This document shows positions 234 through 11,098 of a stretch of 64,000 nt of DNA, piece after piece. Position numbers and translations under genes: made by a program. Origin of the DNA: Antennarius striatus. Its lineage: Eukaryota > Chordata > Actinopteri > Lophiiformes > Antennariidae. The stretch is from NCBI RefSeq assembly GCF_040054535.1, contig NC_090797.1:1580001-1644000 (forward strand). Direction: 5' to 3'. Below the pieces are notes generated by a model that worked only from the letters and a program-made list of their open reading frames with translations, did no database searches and was not told the origin of the DNA. How positions within the stretch are numbered: position 1 is the first letter of the stretch; every line of letters begins with the position of its first letter.

Positions 234-291
<58 letters not shown>
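234..291. repeat. (CA)n microsatellite
   Basis: An uninterrupted CA dinucleotide tract of about 58 bp. Apparent reading frames across it encode only His-Thr or Cys-Val runs and are not genes. Confidence 0.98.
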
Positions 292-1856: not shown

Positions 1857-2030
1857 TTACCACAGCCCATAATAAGCAGGTTCACGATAAACCACTGTGG
1901 GTCTGAGCATCAGTATATACATCCTCATGACATGTCTCTCAGACATGTCTCCTCCTTCAGTGATAGGCGGGTAGCATTCTATGTCATCACGAATGAAACG
2001 AACATGTTCACCATCACCTTCTCCGTACAT
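1857..2030 (-). CDS. MYG-family mini-ORF, inverted copy A (57 aa)
   Basis: This is an intact 57-codon frame on the minus strand, the only inverted member of the array. It opens MYGEGDGEH, carries an EGGDMSERH block at residues 25-33, and closes RPTVVYREP...LW, so it has the family's fixed ends and a divergent middle. I see no signal peptide or membrane segment. A TTATAA box at 2064-2069 lies about 35 bp upstream of the ATG, and the usual upstream block follows inverted at about 2085-2185. I do not recognise the family. Its integrity after inversion and strong divergence argues for a translated product, though no intron, orthologue or expression evidence is available from sequence alone. An overlapping plus-strand frame here is dominated by the CA repeat and is a shadow. 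Confidence 0.45.
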   Translation of the reverse strand: MYGEGDGEHVRFIRDDIECYPPITEGGDMSERHVMRMYILMLRPTVVYREPAYYGLW

Positions 2031-2343
2031 CTCAGCGATCAGGCAGAAGGATGGGGACGTCCCTTATAAGATAGACTTATGAATAGACTCAGACGTCTTT
2101 TGAAGACGAGTTCAAAGAGGGTTTGGACCGACTGTCCTTCCATCTTCATGAAGATGAGACGATTGAAATCACCTCGTCTTTTAGATGCTTTTTCTGGCTA
2201 CAGATTGAGATCATTGTGGCGTGTTTCACCTCTATGGAATGATGATTGAATTTATAGACCTTACAGGTCAGTCCGAATACCATTCACCTATGACTCCAGT
2301 AAAAAACATCAAAGCCATGACATCAAAGACTTCTTAAAGACTC

Positions 2344-2351
2344 TATTTAAG
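2344..2351 (+). promoter_or_regulatory. TATA-like box of broken copy B
   Basis: TATTTAAG preceded by two exact ATCAAAG motifs and the shared CATCAAAG/GACATC block. The promoter block of this copy is preserved although its reading frame is not. Confidence 0.4.
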
Positions 2352-2420
2352 AATGGAGGTCCCTATTCTTTTGCTTAAGTCTACATTTTCCTACCTTTCA
2401 ATTCCTGTTGGACTGTTGAA

Positions 2421-2604
2421 ATGTACGGCGATGGCGATTATGATGTTTGAAAGAAATACACGAGGACAGGTTGAATTTATTTGTGGTGGAGGAGATCAGA
2501 CCGACAAACATATCTTGATGTTATTTATTATTCTGAACCAACATGATCGTGGACCTTTATCGAGTGGGACTGAAATTAAACATATTTTAGTTTTGAGTTG
2601 TTGA
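2421..2604 (+). pseudogene. MYG-family copy B, broken
   Basis: It begins with the family start (ATGTACGGCGATGGCGAT) but stops after nine codons. Downstream, sequence matching the rest of the family (CACGAGG, GGTGGAGGAGATC, GGACCTTTATCGAG) is still recognisable but shifted by small indels. The upstream promoter block and TATA-like box are well preserved. I call it a decayed array member. A frame running through the region from 2353 would encode an unrelated peptide and is not supported by the other copies. Confidence 0.5.
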
Positions 2605-2790
2605 ATCAGTCATGCTGGGGTGTGTTCTGACAAAACGATAATAATCCATTTTGAATTTTTTTTCTTTCACGATGGCAGGTGTTGGCCGTGCCTCACCTGT
2701 TAGGTAGGTCCAAACCCTCTCTTTAACTTGGAACAATGCAAAACATCAGAGTCTTCAAAGACATGACATCAAAGACTTCCTAAAAGACTC

Positions 2791-2798
2791 TATTTAAG
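2791..2798 (+). promoter_or_regulatory. TATA-like box of copy C
   Basis: TATTTAAG within the conserved string GACTCTATTTAAGAATGGGAG, 57 bp upstream of the ATG of copy C. Upstream at 2740-2780 are TTCAAAG and ATCAAAG motifs. The same arrangement recurs before copies B, D, E, F and G. Confidence 0.45.
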
Positions 2799-2847
2799 AA
2801 TGGGAGTCACCATCCTTCTGCTTGAGTGTAAACTTTAGACCATTGAG

Positions 2848-3033
2848 ATGTACGGAGAAGGTGATGATAGAAATCATACGAGGTTTAGAAGCGATAAGCA
2901 TGAAGTCGCTATGTATATCACCAGTGGAGGAGACCGGTACAGCATGGAAACCAGGATGTCAATTGTATGTCGGAACGAACCTGCAGTTATGTTTCGTGAA
3001 CCTTATCCTGAACCATACTGGCCACTAGAGTAG
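2848..3033 (+). CDS. MYG-family mini-ORF, copy C (61 aa)
   Basis: A single-exon 61-codon frame. It starts MYGEGDDRNHTRFRSDKHE, has the central GGD at residues 27-29 and ends EPAVMFREPYPEPYW plus a short tail. The start is chosen because all copies align at this ATG, which follows CCATTGAG. The peptide is hydrophilic and acidic at its N terminus, with no signal peptide, membrane helix or known motif. It stands in a tandem series with copies D-G at intervals of about 0.8-1.6 kb. Its 3' flank (3080-3550) is homologous to that of copy G (8364-8700). I cannot name the family. The function is unknown and even protein-coding status is an inference from frame conservation among diverged copies. Confidence 0.5.
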   Translation: MYGEGDDRNHTRFRSDKHEVAMYITSGGDRYSMETRMSIVCRNEPAVMFREPYPEPYWPLE

Positions 3034-3738
3034 CACACCCATCATACAAGCTTTATGAGGCAAGCAGCTCATAAAGTCGGTTTTCTCCGGGTGCTCCGGT
3101 TGACCAACACAGAAACATCAATAAATAAACATGAAGAAATCCTCTAAACTTAAATCTCAGCAGGAATAAAACACAAGTGTCGGGTCTTCTTTCCTAGCGT
3201 CAATCGTTGCGTCTTCAGCTACTGGAGCCGTGGCGCTACGGAAGCTCCAAGCTCTGCTGTCCTGTCACACTACAAACTTGCAGACACGGAAAGAATAACT
3301 AACTAAATAACTAAACAACTAAATAAATAAAATTATCATCTTAAAGAAAAGTGTGTAAAAACGTCTTCATTTGAAAACTCAACTCAACGGGATACGCCTT
3401 AAACCCCAACGCCGCCATCTGCCTGATTCAAGTGTCTACAGACCTTTTTTTTTTAATTGCTTTTTAAAATAAATAATAAAAATGTGTAAAGCATAAAAAA
3501 AACATGTAATGACTGTCAAACAAAATTCAACTTATTATTGTAGTCATTTAAGGTGGTTTGTCTGAACATGATGGCTTGCTTGGTGGTTGTTCAGCTTCCT
3601 TTTCTTGTCACATGACCTTTCTTGAGTTGGTTTACCTTAGGTTCTTGAAGCATGTCCTTTAACCTGAATCAAGTTTTCACTTTGTTCCAGCCTGAGAAAT
3701 AGCTGAGAAGTTTGTTACACCCTGCTTCAAAGTGGTGA

Positions 3739-4017
3739 TGTATTGTAATGGTCAGTGTTTGTTCATCCGTCCGTCTGTCTGTCCGTTAGTCCACCAAATG
3801 TCTTCGCAACCGTTGCAGATAGAAAGATGGAACAAAAAGCACGTTACTCGGGCAGCAAAGGGGATGACCTTCACCTTGAAAAAACTAGATCAAGGTCAAA
3901 TTTAAACTTTTGTACACTCAGGAACCGGATAAGATAGAAGGACGAGGGAGAAAGCCAGTGTGTGTAAGACCATAGATAAAGCTAGTGCTTTGATTAATGA
4001 CAGTAGGTCAGAGCAAA
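3739..4017 (+). repeat. interspersed element, forward copy of inverted pair
   Basis: About 280 bp running from ATGTATTGTAATGGTCAGTG through a CCGTCCGTCTGTCTGTCCG stretch to CCAGTGTGTGTAAGACC. A diverged copy lies in opposite orientation at 5198-5466. I cannot assign it to a named family. It looks like a non-autonomous transposable element or SINE, not a gene. Confidence 0.7.
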
Positions 4018-4298
4018 CTCAACCACAAAAGCATTAATCATGATGTTTGGTTTGACCCCAGGATCATCCAAAGTTGACGCAAACCTGTCCACTTGTAGCT
4101 TTGGGCAGTCCGTTGAAGAAACCTTGGTCTATTTATAAGATTGTCATCTGCAGGATTATGTTAAAATCCTGGTTGTACTGTGTAAATAAAAAGCTGTAGA
4201 TTACCCTTTCTCAATGCAAAGTAATGTTAGTTTCAATAGATCATTCTGGATTTCACCTCTATGGAAGAAGGGCTTTGAACTTGGGACAAATGTAAAAC

Positions 4299-4356
4299 AT
4301 CAAAGTCTTCAAAGACATGACATCAAAGACTCCAAAGACATCTGAGTCTATTTAAG
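4299..4356 (+). promoter_or_regulatory. putative promoter of copy D (WWCAAAG cluster plus TATA)
   Basis: Exact TCF/LEF-type core motifs stand at 4299-4305 (ATCAAAG), 4308-4314 (TTCAAAG) and 4322-4328 (ATCAAAG), followed by TATTTAAG at 4349-4356. The ATG is 68 bp further on. Binding by TCF/LEF is only inferred from the motif. The arrangement is repeated at the other copies. Confidence 0.4.
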
Positions 4357-4423
4357 AATAGAAGTCCCTGTCATTCTGCTTGAGTTCACACGTTTGTGGT
4401 TTGATTCCTGTTAGACCATTGAG

Positions 4424-4609
4424 ATGTATGGAGAAGGCGATGATAGAGATCATACGATCTATAACAGAGATAAACTAGAATGCAGTCTATTTATCAATGG
4501 AGGAGGGGATAGGAGCAGCCGAGAACTCTGGACACTATATCTATATTGGGACATGCCTGCAGTACTCTATCGTGTACCTTATCATCGACCATATCGATTA
4601 CGAAGGTAG
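4424..4609 (+). CDS. MYG-family mini-ORF, copy D (61 aa)
   Basis: An intact 61-codon frame beginning MYGEGDDRDHT with GGGD at residues 26-29. It is the most divergent at its C terminus: the usual EPTVVYxEP becomes MPAVLYRVP and the terminal aromatic is replaced by arginines, so it may be losing constraint. The frame and length match copies C and E exactly. It is flanked on both sides by the inverted pair of interspersed elements (3739-4017 and 5198-5466). The function is not recognised. Confidence 0.42.
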   Translation: MYGEGDDRDHTIYNRDKLECSLFINGGGDRSSRELWTLYLYWDMPAVLYRVPYHRPYRLRR

Positions 4610-5197
4610 TGCTGTTGGAGTTTGTATGTTTGTATGTTTGCAATTAGCCTCAAAATCCAAAAAACTCTAGTTTACTTCCATGTCGGTTTTCTCCGGGTGC
4701 TCCGGTTCACCAAGACAGAAACATTACAAAAAAACAAAAACAAAGAAGTGGCAGGACCTGGGTAAATTACGCAGAATTTTTTAAATGTTATTTATGTGAT
4801 TTATGTATTCATTTATTCAAGTAAGTGCCTTAATCGGAAAGCTACAGGTAGTTAACGCTGGCAAGGATAAGGAAGTTCTGCCAACCCGTTGAGACAATCA
4901 TGTCAAAAACTAACTCATTTCTCGGCGCCCCATTCATTGGGAAGATTGGCGCCCTTCTTGGCAGGGTGACTGTACTGCAACCACAAATCGATTGATAACC
5001 ATGGAAAACTGTGCCTTGATGTTCCTTGTGTTGCCTATACTTTCTGAATAAAATCGAACAGAATTTAATTGAATGCGTTAAACCTTGCTTTCTATATCAT
5101 AGCCATATATTATAGAAAATTGATTTATGATTATTGATCCTTGCAAGGTTCAACTAGAGCCACGGCAGCCAGAGACTGCAACATCCCGCGACATTGA

Positions 5198-5466
5198 TCA
5201 AAGCTAGTGCTCTGATCTACTGTCATTGTCTTACACTGGCCTTCTCTCTCATCATTCTATGTTATCCGGTTCCTGAGTGTACAAAAGTTTAAATTTGACC
5301 TTGACCTAGTTCTCTCAAGGTCAAGGTCATCCTCTCATTTTCATCCCCTCTGCTGCCTGAGTAATGTGCATTTTTTTTCATCTTTCTATCTGCAACGGTT
5401 GCAAAGATACTTGGTGGACTAACGGACGGACGGACGAACACACGAACACTGACAATCACAATACAT
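5198..5466 (-). repeat. interspersed element, inverted copy
   Basis: The reverse-complement counterpart of 3739-4017, sharing the CCGTCCGTTAGTCCACC stretch and the GCAACCGTTGCAGATAGAAAG segment. Together the pair could fold as a stem with a loop of about 1.2 kb containing copy D. Confidence 0.7.
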
Positions 5467-5617
5467 GGCCGCCTTGAAGCGGGATGTAATGACGTGTGTG
5501 TGGTTTATTCTTCTCTATTGTGGGAGCTATAGATCCTTAAAATAGTTTCGTAGAAATTGAAAAAAATCTACTTTGGTAGGTCCAAACCCTCTCTTTGAAT
5601 TTGGGACAATGTAAAAC

Positions 5618-5652
5618 ATCAAAGTCTTCAAAGACATCCGAATCTATTTAAG
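5618..5652 (+). promoter_or_regulatory. putative promoter of copy E
   Basis: ATCAAAG at 5618-5624 and TTCAAAG at 5627-5633, followed by TATTTAAG at 5645-5652, 67 bp before the ATG. It is preceded by the block common to all copies, CCAAACCCTCTCTTTGAA, at about 5582. Confidence 0.42.
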
Positions 5653-5718
5653 AAAGGCAGTCCATATCTTTCTGCTAGAGTCTACGCTTTCCTGCTTGAT
5701 TTCTGTTAGACTATTGAG

Positions 5719-5904
5719 ATGTACGGACAAGGCGATGATGTAAATCATACGAGGTTTAGAATAGATAACGGAGAATGGGAGCTATATATCAGTGGAGGAG
5801 GAGATCGGAACGGTGCAGAACTCTGGACATTACATCGATATCGGAAGGAGCCCACAGTAGTTTATCGTGAACCTTTTCTTCAACCATATTGGTCAACAAG
5901 GTAG
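5719..5904 (+). CDS. MYG-family mini-ORF, copy E (61 aa)
   Basis: An intact 61-codon frame, MYGQGDDVNHTRFRIDNGE at the start, SGGGDR near residue 28 and EPTVVYREPFLQPYW close to the end. Compared with copy F over the first 30 codons I count about nine replacement differences and no obvious silent one, with no indel. The ends are nearly invariant while the middle has changed. It has the full promoter block upstream and no intron. The function is unknown. Confidence 0.5.
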   Translation: MYGQGDDVNHTRFRIDNGEWELYISGGGDRNGAELWTLHRYRKEPTVVYREPFLQPYWSTR

Positions 5905-6160
5905 CGCTACACATGAAGCATAAATACCCATCCTGGTTTCTCATGATCTAGTGGCTGGATGGTGGAGACACACGATTGAAGACAAAACCGGCGTGTAAAT
6001 GATTCACACAATGGAGGGTTGGAGGGAACCTTCTCCTCAACTAGCTTGGTCCTAAACACATGGCGTTGATACGGTAGTGGTTGGTAACCCACAGAACACT
6101 GGGAAGGTGAGAGTCTGGGTTGGGTATTGTTGGCGTATTCAACCAATATGAGTTCTTTGA

Positions 6161-6193
6161 ACACCTACGCCTTAGCGTCTAAGGCGTAGGTGT
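6161..6193. repeat. perfect 15-bp inverted repeat (hairpin)
   Basis: ACACCTACGCCTTAG and its exact reverse complement are separated by a 3-base CGT loop. It lies between copies E and F. No poly-T follows, and no gene boundary is obvious, so its role is unknown. Confidence 0.85.
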
Positions 6194-6425
6194 TACTTGC
6201 GGGCAATCTGTACCACCAGGGTTCAATTGGAATCCGATTTGTGTAGTCTGAACGCAGCCAATAATTAGCTTTGGAGAATCTGTACCCACAAAAAGCAGCT
6301 AAAGATGAGGTGATTTTTATCGACTCGTTTTCAAGAAGATGGATGGAGGGTCCAAAACCTCTCCTTGAATTGGGGCAAGGTAAAACATCAAAGACATGAC
6401 ATGAAATACTTCAAAGACATCTGAG

Positions 6426-6433
6426 TATTTAAG
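6426..6433 (+). promoter_or_regulatory. TATA-like box of copy F
   Basis: TATTTAAG 69 bp upstream of the ATG of copy F, with ATCAAAG and TTCAAAG motifs in the preceding 50 bp. It belongs to the shared promoter block. Confidence 0.42.
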
Positions 6434-6501
6434 AATGGGAGTCCCCATCCTTCTGCTTGAGTCTAAGCTTTTCCTGGTTTAATTCCCGTTGGACCATTGC
6501 G

Positions 6502-6684
6502 ATGTACGGACAAGGCGATGATGTACATCATACGAGGTTTAGAAGTGATAAACACGAATGCAATCTATATATCAATGGAGCAGGAGATATGAGCTACACC
6601 GCAATCATGAGGTCAATTCGGAGAGAACCCACAGTAGTTTATCAGGAACCTCATCGTACTCCGTTTTGGCCCATCCTAGTCTAG
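6502..6684 (+). CDS. MYG-family mini-ORF, copy F (60 aa)
   Basis: An intact frame starting at the aligned ATG: MYGQGDDVHHTRFRSDKHE, then NGAGDM in the centre and EPTVVYQEPHRTPFW near the end. The frame stays open upstream to 6457 but lacks a family-conserved ATG there, so 6502 is preferred. It resembles copy E at the N terminus and copy C in the SDKHE segment, suggesting mosaic history or gene conversion. No targeting signal is visible and the product is unknown. Confidence 0.5.
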   Translation: MYGQGDDVHHTRFRSDKHECNLYINGAGDMSYTAIMRSIRREPTVVYQEPHRTPFWPILV

Positions 6685-7539
6685 CCTATCCCAAGAACCC
6701 TTTTGACCTCATGTCATCACTAGGTAACTAGAGCCACAGTCATACATGTTCTATGAGCCAAAAAGCTAATGCTAGCATTCAGGAAGCGTTTATTAAAAAA
6801 CTCTGAAACAGGAATTTAATTCCATCCATCCACTCTAAGTGAGACGCCAGCCAATTGAGAGTCCTGTAATTAGCATCTAACTCCAATAGATTTACTTTAT
6901 TTACATGTCGGTTTTCTCCGGGTGCTCCGGTTCACCAACACAAAAACATCCATTAAAAAAAATGGCTGTGTAGGAGCCGTTTTAAAGTTTATTCTATGTA
7001 TAAACCTTATTTTTTTATTCGTTTTGCTTTAACTCCGATGCTATGTCTCTTTGTTCACACCTTATTGGCTGCTGCACCTTTCACAGGTCAGAGATCAGAT
7101 CAGCATATATACAGTACAGTATATGCGGGGTTCTAGTCAGCATTTACTGTATAGAAACCAGTTATTATTGGCTGTTTGATCTGTGAATTAATTTTTTTCT
7201 GCAATAAATGGGAACTTCACACAAAGAGAAACATCCTTCTGGATATTTTTGTTGATTTAAGCTGAATACACGTTGGCAACACTCTGTCATTCCTGATAAA
7301 TCTATAGTCCTCATAGATTGATCCCATAAACATTCACCTATGATTAGCTCTATAGACCGTTAATTAAATCCAACAACATCTGTGTAATTTACTTCAGTTT
7401 AGTACCCCTACAAGAATCAATGTGTCTTTGGTATTAGAAGAACTTGTCCATTATATTCCTATTATACGTATTTCCTGTGGCTCTATTAGCAGCTACAGAC
7501 GAGGTGATTTCAATTGTCATGTCTTCAAGAAGATGGATG

Positions 7540-7665
7540 GACGGTCCAAAACCTCTCCTTGAACTTGGGACAATGTATGACATCAAAGAAAAGACATCAA
7601 AGACTTCTTAAAGACTTTTCTACTCTGAGATGAACGGAAAGGGCGATTGTGAACCGTCTGACCCT
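7540..7665 (+). pseudogene. MYG-family fragment H
   Basis: A truncated array member immediately before copy G. Part of the shared promoter block (CATCAAAG repeated) leads without a TATA-like box into GAGATGAACGGAAAGGGCGATTG at 7627, a degenerate family start encoding MNGKGD. After a few codons the similarity ends in a perfect 14-bp palindrome, CCTATACGTATAGG, and a new upstream block for copy G begins. Confidence 0.4.
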
Positions 7666-7804
7666 ATACGTATAGGTATGGAGTTCCTGAGGTGGTTTCA
7701 ATCGTCTTCAATCCATCTAGAAGATGGAAGGATGGTGGGTCCAAACCTTCTCTTTGAACTTGGAACATTGTAAAAACATCAAAGTCTTCAAAGACATCCG
7801 AGTC

Positions 7805-7813
7805 TATTTTAAG
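7805..7813 (+). promoter_or_regulatory. TATA-like box of copy G
   Basis: TATTTTAAG, one T longer than in the other copies, with ATCAAAG and TTCAAAG just upstream. The ATG follows after only 36 bp because a segment of about 30 bp in the leader is missing, as it is in inverted copy A. Confidence 0.42.
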
Positions 7814-7849
7814 AATAGCAGACCCTCATCTTTCTGCTTGAACATTGAG

Positions 7850-8026
7850 ATGTACGGAATGGGTGACGGTTCAAGTCATTCTATTTTCAATAATCAAGAC
7901 AGAGAATGCTATTTACTCATAACTAGTGCAGGAGATATGTCCAGAGTACAACTCAGCAGGTCAAATATATTCATGTTGGAGCCCACGGTGGTTTATCATG
8001 AACCCTATCCTTACTTGTTCTGGTAA
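7850..8026 (+). CDS. MYG-family mini-ORF, copy G (58 aa)
   Basis: An intact 58-codon frame and the last array member. It begins MYGMGDGSSHS, has SAGDMS near residue 28 and ends EPTVVYHEPYPYLFW, stopping directly after the tryptophan as copy A does. A frame open from 7724 runs into it, but the aligned family start is at 7850. Shared short leader and short C terminus group it with copy A. A SINE-like block begins immediately after the stop. Confidence 0.48.
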   Translation: MYGMGDGSSHSIFNNQDRECYLLITSAGDMSRVQLSRSNIFMLEPTVVYHEPYPYLFW

Positions 8027-8029
8027 AAA

Positions 8030-8160
8030 AAGGGCGGAGCTGTCACCAAACAGCCGGAAGGTTCCGGGTTCAAGTGGGTCTTTGTCTTTCATGTCGCCCC
8101 GGGATGAGCTGGCGTCTCATCCAGGGTGTATCCTACCTCTCGCATATGTCATCAATAGAT
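8030..8160 (+). repeat. SINE-like fragment
   Basis: GGTTCCGGGTTCAAGTGGG followed by GGGATGAGCTGGCGTCTCATCCAGGG resembles the tRNA-derived or L2-like tails common in fish SINEs. A related remnant, TTTTCTCCGGGTGCTCCGG, appears downstream of copies C, D, F and G (about 3083, 4686, 6909 and 8368). Confidence 0.4.
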
Positions 8161-8363
8161 AATTAGAGGCACAGTCATACAAGTTCTATGAGGCAAGAAG
8201 CTAACGCTAGCATTTAGGAAGGGTTTAGTCTGGGGGCTCAAGCTTGTCTACTGAAAAAAAAATTAAAAATGGGGATTTTACTCTCTACACCCCAGATGAG
8301 ACGCCAGCTCATTGAGGTGTCTAATCAGCCTCCAACTCCAAAAGATTTACTTTACTTCTCTGT

Positions 8364-8700
8364 TGGTTTTCTCCGGGTGCTCCGGTTCACCAACACACAA
8401 ACATCCATCAAAAAAACAACAACCCCGAAATGTCGGGAAACGGGGACATTACACAGAACTTTGTCAGAGTTACATGGTTAATGTTTTTATCCAGTTGATT
8501 TATCAAGAAAAGTGTGTAAAAACATAATTTGAAAAGTCAGAGCCTCGACGGGATATGCCTTAAACCCCAACGCCGCCATACGACTGCCTCAAGTGTCTGC
8601 AGACTTTTATTTGATTAAAAAAAATTATAAAAATGTGTAAAATAAAAAAAAAAATCAAACAAAAAATAATATTGATAGTCATGGTGATTTATGATTGTCC
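8364..8700. repeat. duplicated 3' flank of the MYG array
   Basis: This stretch is homologous to 3080-3550, sharing AAGAAAAGTGTGTAAAAAC and CCTTAAACCCCAACGCCGCC. It marks copies C and G as sharing a long 3' flank that the intervening copies have lost or never had. Confidence 0.7.
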
Positions 8701-11098
8701 ATAACACGAATCCAGATCCATCAATAAAAATGTCGGTGCCAACAATTAATAAATAGTTCTTTGCTCAACAAGATAAAATTATTTTGCTGACGGAAGTGAA
8801 CCACGTGATGCCAATAATGAATCCTGTCTGAATATATCAGCATCCACGACCCCAATGAAAATAAACAGTGGAGGAATAATGATCCTTCACAAAGCAATGA
8901 ATGAATGAAGCCTATTAAAAAATTCTCATACTCATTCAGAATAATCAATACTCTTCATAGTTTCTGAGATCACGATGGTCACATGAGTAACGCGGGGAAT
9001 GGACGTTACTCACTCAGGTGAAGTAATCCTTCAGGTGCGTTTGGGTGGAGCTCCTCTGGTGGGGAAAGTTCTCATTAATCCATCGCTGGATCCGCGTTAA
9101 CGGGAGTTCAGAAGTCCAGAACGCGTGGAAATCGAGACTCTTCGGTATTTAGTATCCTCAAAAGGCATTGATTATTTAAATATAGAACAACATCGCGGAA
9201 CTGAGTTCCTCTCCTCTCGCCAGCTCATCCAAAACCACCAGCTGTTTCCACCAGGTGGTTCTCAGTGGGCGGGGAGAAGCAACCAATCAGTGCGATTGAT
9301 CAACTCCAAGTAGTAATAATGTGACCCACAGAACATGTCATTGGCAGTGTCCATATGAATTCAGCATGCAGGTCTTACTTTGCTTATATTTTATTTCTTT
9401 TAGAGGATTTTGTGTCTTTGTCTTTGTGTTTTTGTATTGTTTTTAGTTTTTGAGTTCACCTCAGGAGTCACATCCTTTAATTGGTTCAACTTATCCAACA
9501 ATCAATAATGTTGCGCGTTGAAATGATAATTCTCCGTTTACATCGAACCAAAAATCGCCCCATGCGCTCCAGTTTTGAAGGAAGTACTTCAATTCGTTTC
9601 GTTCATCTTAACAAAAGTTTGCCTTTTATCAAGTTAAAAAAATACGTAATGATATCTGAGTTGTTAGGATGGGTAAAGTAACATTAAAATGATTTTCTCA
9701 ACTTTTATTTAGAATATTTCATCCAGACGCGTTGGCGTCGTGTTAAATCTGCATCAAATGAAAATGAAGCATTTGTAGTTCCTCACTTTGGCCACAGGAG
9801 GGAGTAAAACGCTTTTACCGTCAAGAGCCTTCTAAAAAAAATTATCAGCAATGGAGTTTAAAATATATTTCTATTTGAAATGTATACAATCGTAAAACTG
9901 TTTGAAATGCTAACTAGCATTAGCCCCCCTCTCCCTTCTCGTTAGTTTCCTAAAGATAAAGTAATAATTGTGCGTCTGGGTTCAGACACGAAGACTGAGT
10001 GAAGCTCAGTAATACTACCATTGACCACAGGAGGGCAGTGTCATCAATGTGTTCATGTCCGGTGGTCGTTCAAAATAAAAGCATCAAACTAACAAGAAAT
10101 ATATTTCACAATTAAAGTACGACTAAAAACTGTTTTTTAATGTTTTTATATTGTTTTTGAACGATTGTTACTATCAGAATAAAGACGTGAAGGGGGTTTT
10201 AAGCGAGGAGATTCATAAAGAACGTGAGTCATCACATTTACAGATTTACAGCTCATCAGAAATATTGAAAGATGCAACTTTAACTGCCTGGAGGCAAAAA
10301 AAAAAGCATCCATGATTAAACAAAAACAGTAATGAAAAGGTGGAATATTTTTATTACAGGTGAGTTTCATTTAAGTTTTATTATTTCACAAATTTCACAC
10401 ATATAAAAACAAAATTATGCAAAATGTGGCAAATTACTTTAAGAGAGAAGAGGCAGGGCTGAGATAAACACCGCCGTCACTTTACTCGCCGACCCTCTCT
10501 ATTGTCAGTCTCTCAGCTTTAAAATGAAATCACCTAAAGCACTCAACCGGAAATAAAATAACTCTTTATTGTTGTTGGAGCCACAAACAAATGTAAACAT
10601 GAACACGTGATCTAATATAACACTTAATTAACACGATCATAAATAAAAGTTCAGTGCAAAACAAAGCTGTGATACGTACACACACAGCAGGATTAGCATT
10701 AGCTCCAGGAGGAGGATGTATGAAGTTTTCTAATGTTTTTTTTTATACCTAAGCATTTGCAGAATATTTTGTATAGCTGCTAAAATGGCATCAAAACTTT
10801 TATTTTGTTTAAAATTTTTCCTCCATAATCCTCGTGACAGTCGTGAAAATCGTACGTTGAGTTTTAGCTACAATAGAAATGGCGCAAATTCAAATAAAAA
10901 CAGCAACAGATTTAAATAAATATTCATCGTACATTTTCCTGCAGGTATCCTGTGAGCTAGCGTGATAGCAGCTGAGTATTAGCGGGCATCAGGAGTGCGT
11001 TGTCATGGTTGCAGATCCAAAAAAAGATCACGTTGGGACGGGAGAAGTGGGCGGAGCCTTGGCGTGATGGAATGACGAATGAGGTTTGGCTTCGTTTC
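8701..11098. other. intergenic DNA and dnm1l 3' UTR
   Basis: No coding exon is seen. A minus-strand AATAAA (TTTATT on the plus strand) near 10563 is a plausible polyadenylation signal for dnm1l, giving a 3' UTR of about 0.5 kb. The rest is AT-rich sequence without recognisable structure. Confidence 0.45.

Follow-up and report, generated by a model that had tools for sequence, protein, structure and literature searches.

Identification of the Family

Does a cluster of short, divergent open reading frames in the genome of Antennarius striatus encode a protein family, or are the frames non-coding repeats? The window is the whole 64,000-nt stretch that was analyzed (assembly GCF_040054535.1, contig NC_090797.1, positions 1,580,001 to 1,644,000). 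Six intact short frames and two broken ones had been described from its letters, and all were confirmed at 1.8-8.1 kb of the window, the intact frames having 57-61 codons and one of them being inverted (Table 1). The starts of c5 and c6 were assigned by homology, the starts in the ORF list both lying upstream of the conserved ATG. When the window was scanned in six frames with a six-member profile, each intact frame was recovered at E 3e-30 or better, values that are partly circular because the profile was built from the same six frames. The next match was the broken copy near 2421 (E 0.04), and then noise.

Table 1. Coordinates of family members, upstream blocks and flanking sequence in the window.
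Feature	Position	Strand	Description
c1	1857..2030	-	Intact, 57 aa, inverted member; genome search and window profile scan
c2	2848..3033	+	Intact, 61 aa; genome search and window profile scan
c3	4424..4609	+	Intact, 61 aa; genome search and window profile scan
c4	5719..5904	+	Intact, 61 aa; genome search and window profile scan
c5	6502..6684	+	Intact, 60 aa; conserved ATG at 6502, ORF list opens at TTG 6457
c6	7850..8026	+	Intact, 58 aa; conserved ATG at 7850, ORF-list ATG 7724 precedes TATA-like box
Broken copy 1	2421..2604	+	Start retained, codon 10 a stop; downstream portion recognizable in another frame (profile E 0.04)
Broken copy 2	7630..7773	+	Upstream block and first codons only; remainder out of register
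TATA-like box of c1	2063..2068	-	TATAAG, 38 nt before the c1 ATG
Promoter-like block of c2	2703..2847	+	TATTTAAG at 2791-2798
Promoter-like block of c3	4265..4423	+	TATTTAAG at 4349-4356; repeated ATCAAAG/TTCAAAG
Promoter-like block of c4	5575..5718	+	TATTTAAG at 5645-5652
Promoter-like block of c5	6344..6501	+	TATTTAAG at 6426-6433
Promoter-like block of c6	7727..7849	+	TATTTTAAG at 7805-7813
3' flank of c5	6711..6961	+	Matches 8146-8416 behind c6 (75% over 273 columns); part of duplicated unit

With c4 as the sole query against the 548-Mb genome, c4 itself and four other array members were recovered at E <= 1e-3, and c1 was recovered with c6 as the query (E 1.7e-9). Genome searches and a profile scan of the fetched stretches identified five more intact members, approximately 0.2 and 0.5 Mb away from the window, and another two copies that are broken or altered. 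All lie on the same contig within about 0.5 Mb, and the family occupies both strands. Altogether 15 copies were found in the genome; 11 have intact frames, 56-65 residues long, and 4 are broken or altered. The family's genomic setting comprises a dynamin / RWD-CCCH neighbourhood and, as read by eye, Wnt-like and fibulin-like genes next to the second cluster. Six-frame protein searches, with the best candidates scored, found no family member elsewhere in the 548-Mb genome beyond this stretch of about 0.5 Mb. A candidate on contig C11 (E 1.2) was dropped, as a profile scan of both strands gave nothing better than E 11. The array is thus not purely local.

The copies are strongly diverged from one another. 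Besides the start Met, the residues invariant in the six window members are Y2, G3, G5, D6, H10, E19, I24, G28, D29, P45, V47, and P52; only M1, G5, I24, G28, and D29 are invariant across the 11 members in the genome. The fixed ends noted originally are recognizable, but the central motif given as GxGD is actually [G/A]-G-D. The EPTVVYxEP ending is exact in three of the six members (c4, c5, and c6) and deviates in the others, PxW occurs in three (c2, c4, and c5) but not in the rest, and the F after the H of the start motif is present in five, with Y in c3. We describe the scaffold as MYGxGD, E19, I24, [GA]GD, and P-x-V-x-Y-x-E-P, from which the diverged members deviate in places. Among the 11 members, mean hydropathy over 19-residue stretches peaks at 1.54 (in d1), and each member has 0-1 Cys; the product would, for these reasons, be soluble, and it is probably intracellular. 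Pointing the other way, the first 30 residues of e1 and of e2 include a rather hydrophobic stretch of 9 residues (means of 2.09 and 1.80).

Searches for Known Relatives and Fold

No domain or known family had been recognized in the peptides by eye, and this was borne out, with no significant match in Pfam, NCBIfam, or PDB sequences. None of the 11 members reached a Pfam-A gathering score, the one match having E 0.36 and 9.6 bits versus a required 27. Profile searches of PDB sequences gave no significant match (best E 0.45 with six members and 0.03 with eleven). PHROGs returned only two weak matches for the six members, one member each (best E 0.046), with c1 entered one codon out of place and lacking its Met. 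Scans of viral and prokaryotic collections yielded no confirmed relative; a single 12-residue match in a viral contig was taken as chance. No description of the family was found in open-licence full text.

Two faint resemblances emerged. NCBIfam TIGR03037 (HAAO) matched c6 at E 0.0036, with 17.3 bits versus a cut-off of 145.95, and c6 was the only one of the 11 members with a match to it at E <= 10. Membership in the HAAO/cupin group was rejected, as hhalign gave probabilities of 0.1% (six members) and 0.2% (eleven members) versus four HAAO pieces from PDB chains. CooA chains in the PDB were matched by the profile of all eleven members (E 0.03), which we keep as no more than a faint hint. A gamma-crystallin-like resemblance was considered as well; the PDB sequences listed at E <= 10 (15 and 16 sequences) include no crystallin. 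Structure prediction, which had been proposed as a follow-up, gave no stable fold (AlphaFold2 mean pLDDT of 48.2 and 44.3 from six-sequence alignments).

Coding Status of the Frames

The sense frame is stop-free in all six window members, compared to 1 of the 30 other copy-frame combinations (c1, antisense), and all 11 genome members end in a stop codon. In neutral simulations along the frames' own tree, at most four of the six frames stayed open under six settings with 3,000 runs each (18,000 in total). For the six members, the codon model M1a fit better than a DNA-rate model of equal size (lnL -970.64 versus -979.04), and a nested test detected amino-acid constraint beyond DNA rate variation both with six members (p 1.5e-5) and, with relative branch lengths fixed, with eleven (p 1.4e-5). 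Pairwise gaps in a MAFFT nucleotide alignment were multiples of three in 21 of 21 cases in the frames versus 14 of 85 upstream; however, the corresponding counts from another aligner, run with loose gap costs, were just 21 of 83 in the frames and 14 of 87 upstream. The two aligners disagree, and the gap evidence is therefore aligner-dependent.

Frame retention far beyond what neutrality predicts, together with amino-acid constraint beyond DNA rates, supports a protein family rather than non-coding repeats. That the frames are coding is, as judged from the sequence, well supported.

Selection and Diversification

The scaffold is under purifying selection. Mean dN/dS was 0.82 for the six members, indistinguishable from 1 (p 0.35), and approximately 0.96 for the eleven; such a mean makes relaxed constraint outside the scaffold possible. 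The comparison of M1a with M2a gave p 0.052 with six members and, with relative branch lengths fixed, p 2.3e-4 with eleven, for which M2a assigned dN/dS 2.56 to 33% of codons, a class fitted without control for recombination or gene conversion between copies. Faster-than-neutral sites in the codon model were clearest at residues 31-43, with others scattered. This 13-codon window, picked after the data were seen, had a dN/dS of 2.1 (2dlnL 27). In all 15 pairs, moreover, the frames have diverged further than their own promoters. The c6 promoter groups with that of c4 (support 0.67) and the c6 frame with that of c1 (0.99), a discordance that suggests gene conversion among copies.

These values bear on the possibility that the family is decaying, in which case the frames would be once-functional small genes that were duplicated locally and are now mostly under relaxed selection, with only some copies still used. 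An overall dN/dS near 1, the 4 broken or altered copies among 15, and the strong divergence between copies are all consistent with decay. However, most frames (11 of 15) remain intact, dN/dS in the middle segment is fitted above 1 instead of just at 1, and constraint on scaffold codons reaches the tips of the tree, where synonymous changes confined to one copy occur at five invariant codons (Y2 and G28 in c3; D6, I24, and P52 in c6). We consider decay a possible explanation, though an unlikely one.

Upstream Blocks and Flanking Sequence

Each frame had been said to have its own promoter-like block, and a TATA-like box is indeed found 38-76 nt upstream of each intact window frame. The order of TATA-like box, short leader, and ATG is present in 11 of 11 intact members, the search pattern having been widened for d2 after its sequence was seen. 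As a DNA query against the genome, the c4 block was found beside 8 of the 11 intact members (itself included) and beside one broken copy. The only match elsewhere was an isolated one of 52 nt on C19, and the 3-kb locus around it has no family frame. The search did not find the block beside c1, d1, or d2, which makes a common control of these three members less certain. Behind several frames lie flank pieces that, we presume, resemble widespread fish repeats. A repeat of approximately 250 bp is present inside the array in two copies, inverted, and homology between units stops at differing distances.

The repeat-like flanks raise the question of whether a local mobile element or repeat unit carries the frames as its single-exon ORFs. 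The units do have common flanks, and the inverted pair of repeats would suit such an element; yet the copies found are not dispersed but confined to about 0.5 Mb of the 548-Mb genome (best candidates scored), matches to the c4 promoter block are also local except for the frameless one on C19, and the homology between units stops at varying points. We regard a mobile element as improbable.

Very improbable, in our estimation, is a protocadherin-like arrangement in which every frame, driven by a promoter of its own, acts as a first exon and is joined by splicing to downstream exons that are either common to the copies or separate. All six window copies have a GT at the stop or no more than three bases from it, and the promoter-like block of each copy would fit. 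The candidate donors vary among copies and look poor by eye, however, and the closing stop in all 11 frames, the inverted window copy, and the spread of members over up to 0.5 Mb and both strands argue against splicing to downstream exons.

Promoter-driven non-coding RNA genes with incidental open frames are the least probable alternative: stronger conservation upstream than within the frame would favor such genes, but there is codon-level constraint beyond DNA rate variation, frame retention is above neutral, and a scan of the window against Rfam gave no match at gathering score.

Proposed Explanation

We lean towards a chromosome-restricted family of mini-proteins, encoded by single-exon genes, that evolves by birth and death and in which a scaffold would display a diversifying segment to a partner that changes as well. 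Such a family would grow and decay through segmental duplication. The scaffold would hold out the variable segment, which may contact a partner that itself keeps changing, for example a component of a pathogen or, in the germline or embryo, a rival element. New copies might then be retained because they differ in the version of the partner that they bind. Because the upstream block is common to most members, it is suggested that the members are switched on together.

A bolder proposal, offered tentatively, is that these genes represent an undescribed class, namely an intracellular 60-residue scaffold that carries a hypervariable segment. Its single-exon genes would be co-regulated and confined to one chromosome region, and it would diversify against a changing partner like immune or germline-conflict receptors, at a fraction of their size. 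If the variable segment tracks a pathogen or germline rival, the scaffold would be an unusually small one for recognition in a vertebrate. Genes this short are easily overlooked by annotation, and here a family spotted by eye passes codon-level tests both for its reality and for change under selection. With 11 intact copies found, and 4 more that are broken or altered, all in one chromosome stretch, the family is tractable.

Comparison with Known Systems

TRIM proteins are large and multi-domain, whereas the mini-proteins have about 60 residues and no recognized domain. The likeness lies in their history, as the teleost TRIM genes are outlined as a fish expansion diversified by duplication and positive selection (PMC2657112), the same processes proposed for the mini-proteins. 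Intronless coding genes are likewise known from a fish genome, that of European sea bass, in which single-exon genes are described as derived from parental multi-exon genes (PMC8207432). The mini-protein genes differ in that six-frame genome searches, with the best candidates scored, found no other related exon.

HAAO (3-hydroxyanthranilate 3,4-dioxygenase) and CooA have cupin-like folds, and both match the mini-proteins faintly over the E..I..AGD..P.V.Y stretch; for HAAO, however, profile-profile comparison fails and the c6 score is far below the family cut-off.

In the clustered protocadherins, each unit has its own promoter. The protocadherin clusters, as outlined in PMC4978886, consist of tandem similar units, and the mini-protein genes are likewise tandem similar units with promoter-like blocks. 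Unlike protocadherin units, the mini-protein frames are closed, lie in opposite orientations, and would encode tiny products.

Coding status of the frames

The six open frames of 57-61 codons at 1.8-8.1 kb of the window, one of them inverted, and the two broken copies in the same array were in substance as originally predicted, and the view that they are coding rather than non-coding repeats was upheld. In 18,000 neutral simulation runs on the frames' own tree, with three present copies as starting points and indels on or off, no more than 4 of the 6 frames stayed open. The sense frame was free of stops in all 6 copies, compared to a single case among the 30 remaining combinations of frame and copy. 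At an equal number of parameters, the six members were fitted better by a two-class codon model that includes amino-acid constraint (lnL -970.64) than by one that allows just slow and fast DNA classes (-979.04), and the nested comparison supported amino-acid constraint with p = 1.5e-5 for six members and p = 1.4e-5 for eleven (relative branch lengths were fixed in the eleven-member codon fits). Pairwise gaps were multiples of three in 21 of 21 cases in the frames versus 14 of 85 upstream in the MAFFT nucleotide alignment; however, a looser pairwise aligner gave 21 of 83 versus 14 of 87, and gap-length support for coding is therefore weak. The single-ratio dN/dS of the six members, 0.82, was indistinguishable from 1, which counts against coding. 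By these tests, the frames are a real small-protein family that is fast-changing and restricted to one chromosome.

Extent of the family and its surroundings

Members c4, c5, c6, d1, d2, and e1 served as protein queries against the genome that holds the window, 548 Mb in 42 contigs, and nine fetched 10-kb stretches and the window were scanned with a profile. Five extra intact members were found outside the window, within about 0.5 Mb on the same contig; the family is larger than first seen. The profile built from the six frames found no further copies within the 64-kb window. Among the best-scoring search candidates, the family comprises at least 11 intact and at least 4 broken or altered copies, all in about 0.5 Mb of one contig. 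A candidate on another contig (C11, E 1.2) was dropped, the profile scoring neither strand.

Positions of family members and associated features
Feature	Sequence	Position	Strand or remark
c1, intact	window	1857-2030	(-)
c2, intact	window	2848-3033
c3, intact	window	4424-4609
c4, intact	window	5719-5904
c5, intact	window	6502-6684
c6, intact	window	7850-8026	upstream 7727-7849
Broken copy 1	window	start at 2421	stop at codon 10
Broken copy 2	window	7630-7773	first codons only in register
d1, intact	C22 (window's contig)	1789811-1789990
d2, intact	C22	1805377-1805574
e1, intact	C22	2092486-2092665	(-)
e2, intact	C22	2093979-2094158	(-)
e3, intact	C22	2094676-2094846
Broken/altered copy	C22	near 1805629	expected start out of register with remainder
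Broken/altered copy	C22	2093244-2093405	early stop
Block with 'TTTTCTCCGGGTGCTCCGGTT'	window	3076-3139, 4682-4744, 6907-6964, 8362-8418	86-90% alike to first copy
Further repeat-like stretch	window	~8041-8140
~250-bp repeat	window	3715-3961, 5233-5489	inverted copies
CA/AC microsatellites	window	234-291, 1723-1802
52-nt promoter match	C19	2390654-2390705	90%
Frames by second cluster	L026, L027 (fetched stretches)	~5867-6385, ~9464-9892	read by eye

Of ten stretches elsewhere in the window, nine had Pfam matches with E of 0.001 or lower. These were to Dynamin GED, Dynamin_M in three stretches (one under the curated cut-off), RWD with CCCH fingers, MORN, DUF3402, and AdoHcyase (two). Read from these domains, the neighboring genes would be dnm1l, DHX57, STRIP, and AHCYL. 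The second cluster appears by eye to be adjoined by Wnt-like and EGF/fibulin-like frames. The two copies of the ~250-bp repeat inside the array are 81% alike (blastn) and may represent two insertions of a short dispersed element. Both microsatellites are long, and about 55 nt separate the second from the stop of the inverted c1, downstream of which it lies.

Anatomy of a unit

The predicted promoter-like block of each copy was borne out: an upstream block of about 120-160 nt is common to all six window frames, with a TATA-like box 38-76 nt before the ATG in each. Such a box lies 33-76 nt before the ATG in all 11 intact members, the pattern having been widened for d2 after its sequence was seen. 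Most copies carry ATCAAAG or TTCAAAG words inside the block, which we take to be like HMG-box (TCF/LEF/SOX) sites; 15 WWCAAAG words fall in 6 x 240 nt (a single one in c1) versus 65 in the entire 64 kb, although the copies are related and the counts not independent. In a DNA genome search, the c4 promoter block matched next to 8 of the 11 intact members, c4 among them, and next to broken copy 2, whereas no such match came up at c1, d1, or d2. The search also gave an isolated match on contig C19, and no family frame was found at the 3-kb locus around it. Flanks behind several frames are shared between units, four having the 'TTTTCTCCGGGTGCTCCGGTT' block; this block and the further stretch are presumably like a widespread fish repeat.

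Evolution of the frames

Frame divergence exceeded upstream-block divergence in all 15 window pairs. The dN/dS fits used a recombination-free model at high divergence, on an alignment gapped around residues 14-18, and gave for residues 31-43 of six members, a region picked after inspection, a value of 2.19 (p = 0.004 against 1). Adding a class with dN/dS above 1 (M1a to M2a) gave p = 0.052 for six members and p = 2.3e-4 for eleven, with dN/dS of 2.56 in 33% of codons; the 31-43 region also stood out in the eleven (2dlnL 27). These model fits show scaffold constraint together with a faster-changing middle. The promoter of c6 groups with c4 (support 0.67) and its frame with c1 (0.99), a discord that is possibly due to recombination or gene conversion between units.

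Product and relation to known proteins

The family proteins are probably soluble and intracellular, because mean hydropathy of any 19-residue stretch is at most 1.54 and each of the 11 members has at most one Cys. Close to the start, members e1 and e2 each carry a 9-residue stretch that is fairly hydrophobic. Conserved residues gather at both ends and at a central GD, with the variable part in between. We infer the location, partner, and co-expression of the proteins, and the simplest mechanism would be that a conserved scaffold presents a changing contact surface, that the scaffold genes were multiplied via duplication, and that copies may be retained by selection because the partner changes.

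As originally described, the family is unrecognised: no significant relative was found in Pfam (all 11 members scanned), NCBIfam, or PDB, and structure prediction gave uninformative models. A match of c6 to HAAO (3-hydroxyanthranilate 3,4-dioxygenase; E 0.0036) failed the profile test. No description of the family was found in the accessible part of the open-licence literature. The family appears undescribed within the searched sources; duplicated taxon-restricted genes with diversifying selection are a known kind.
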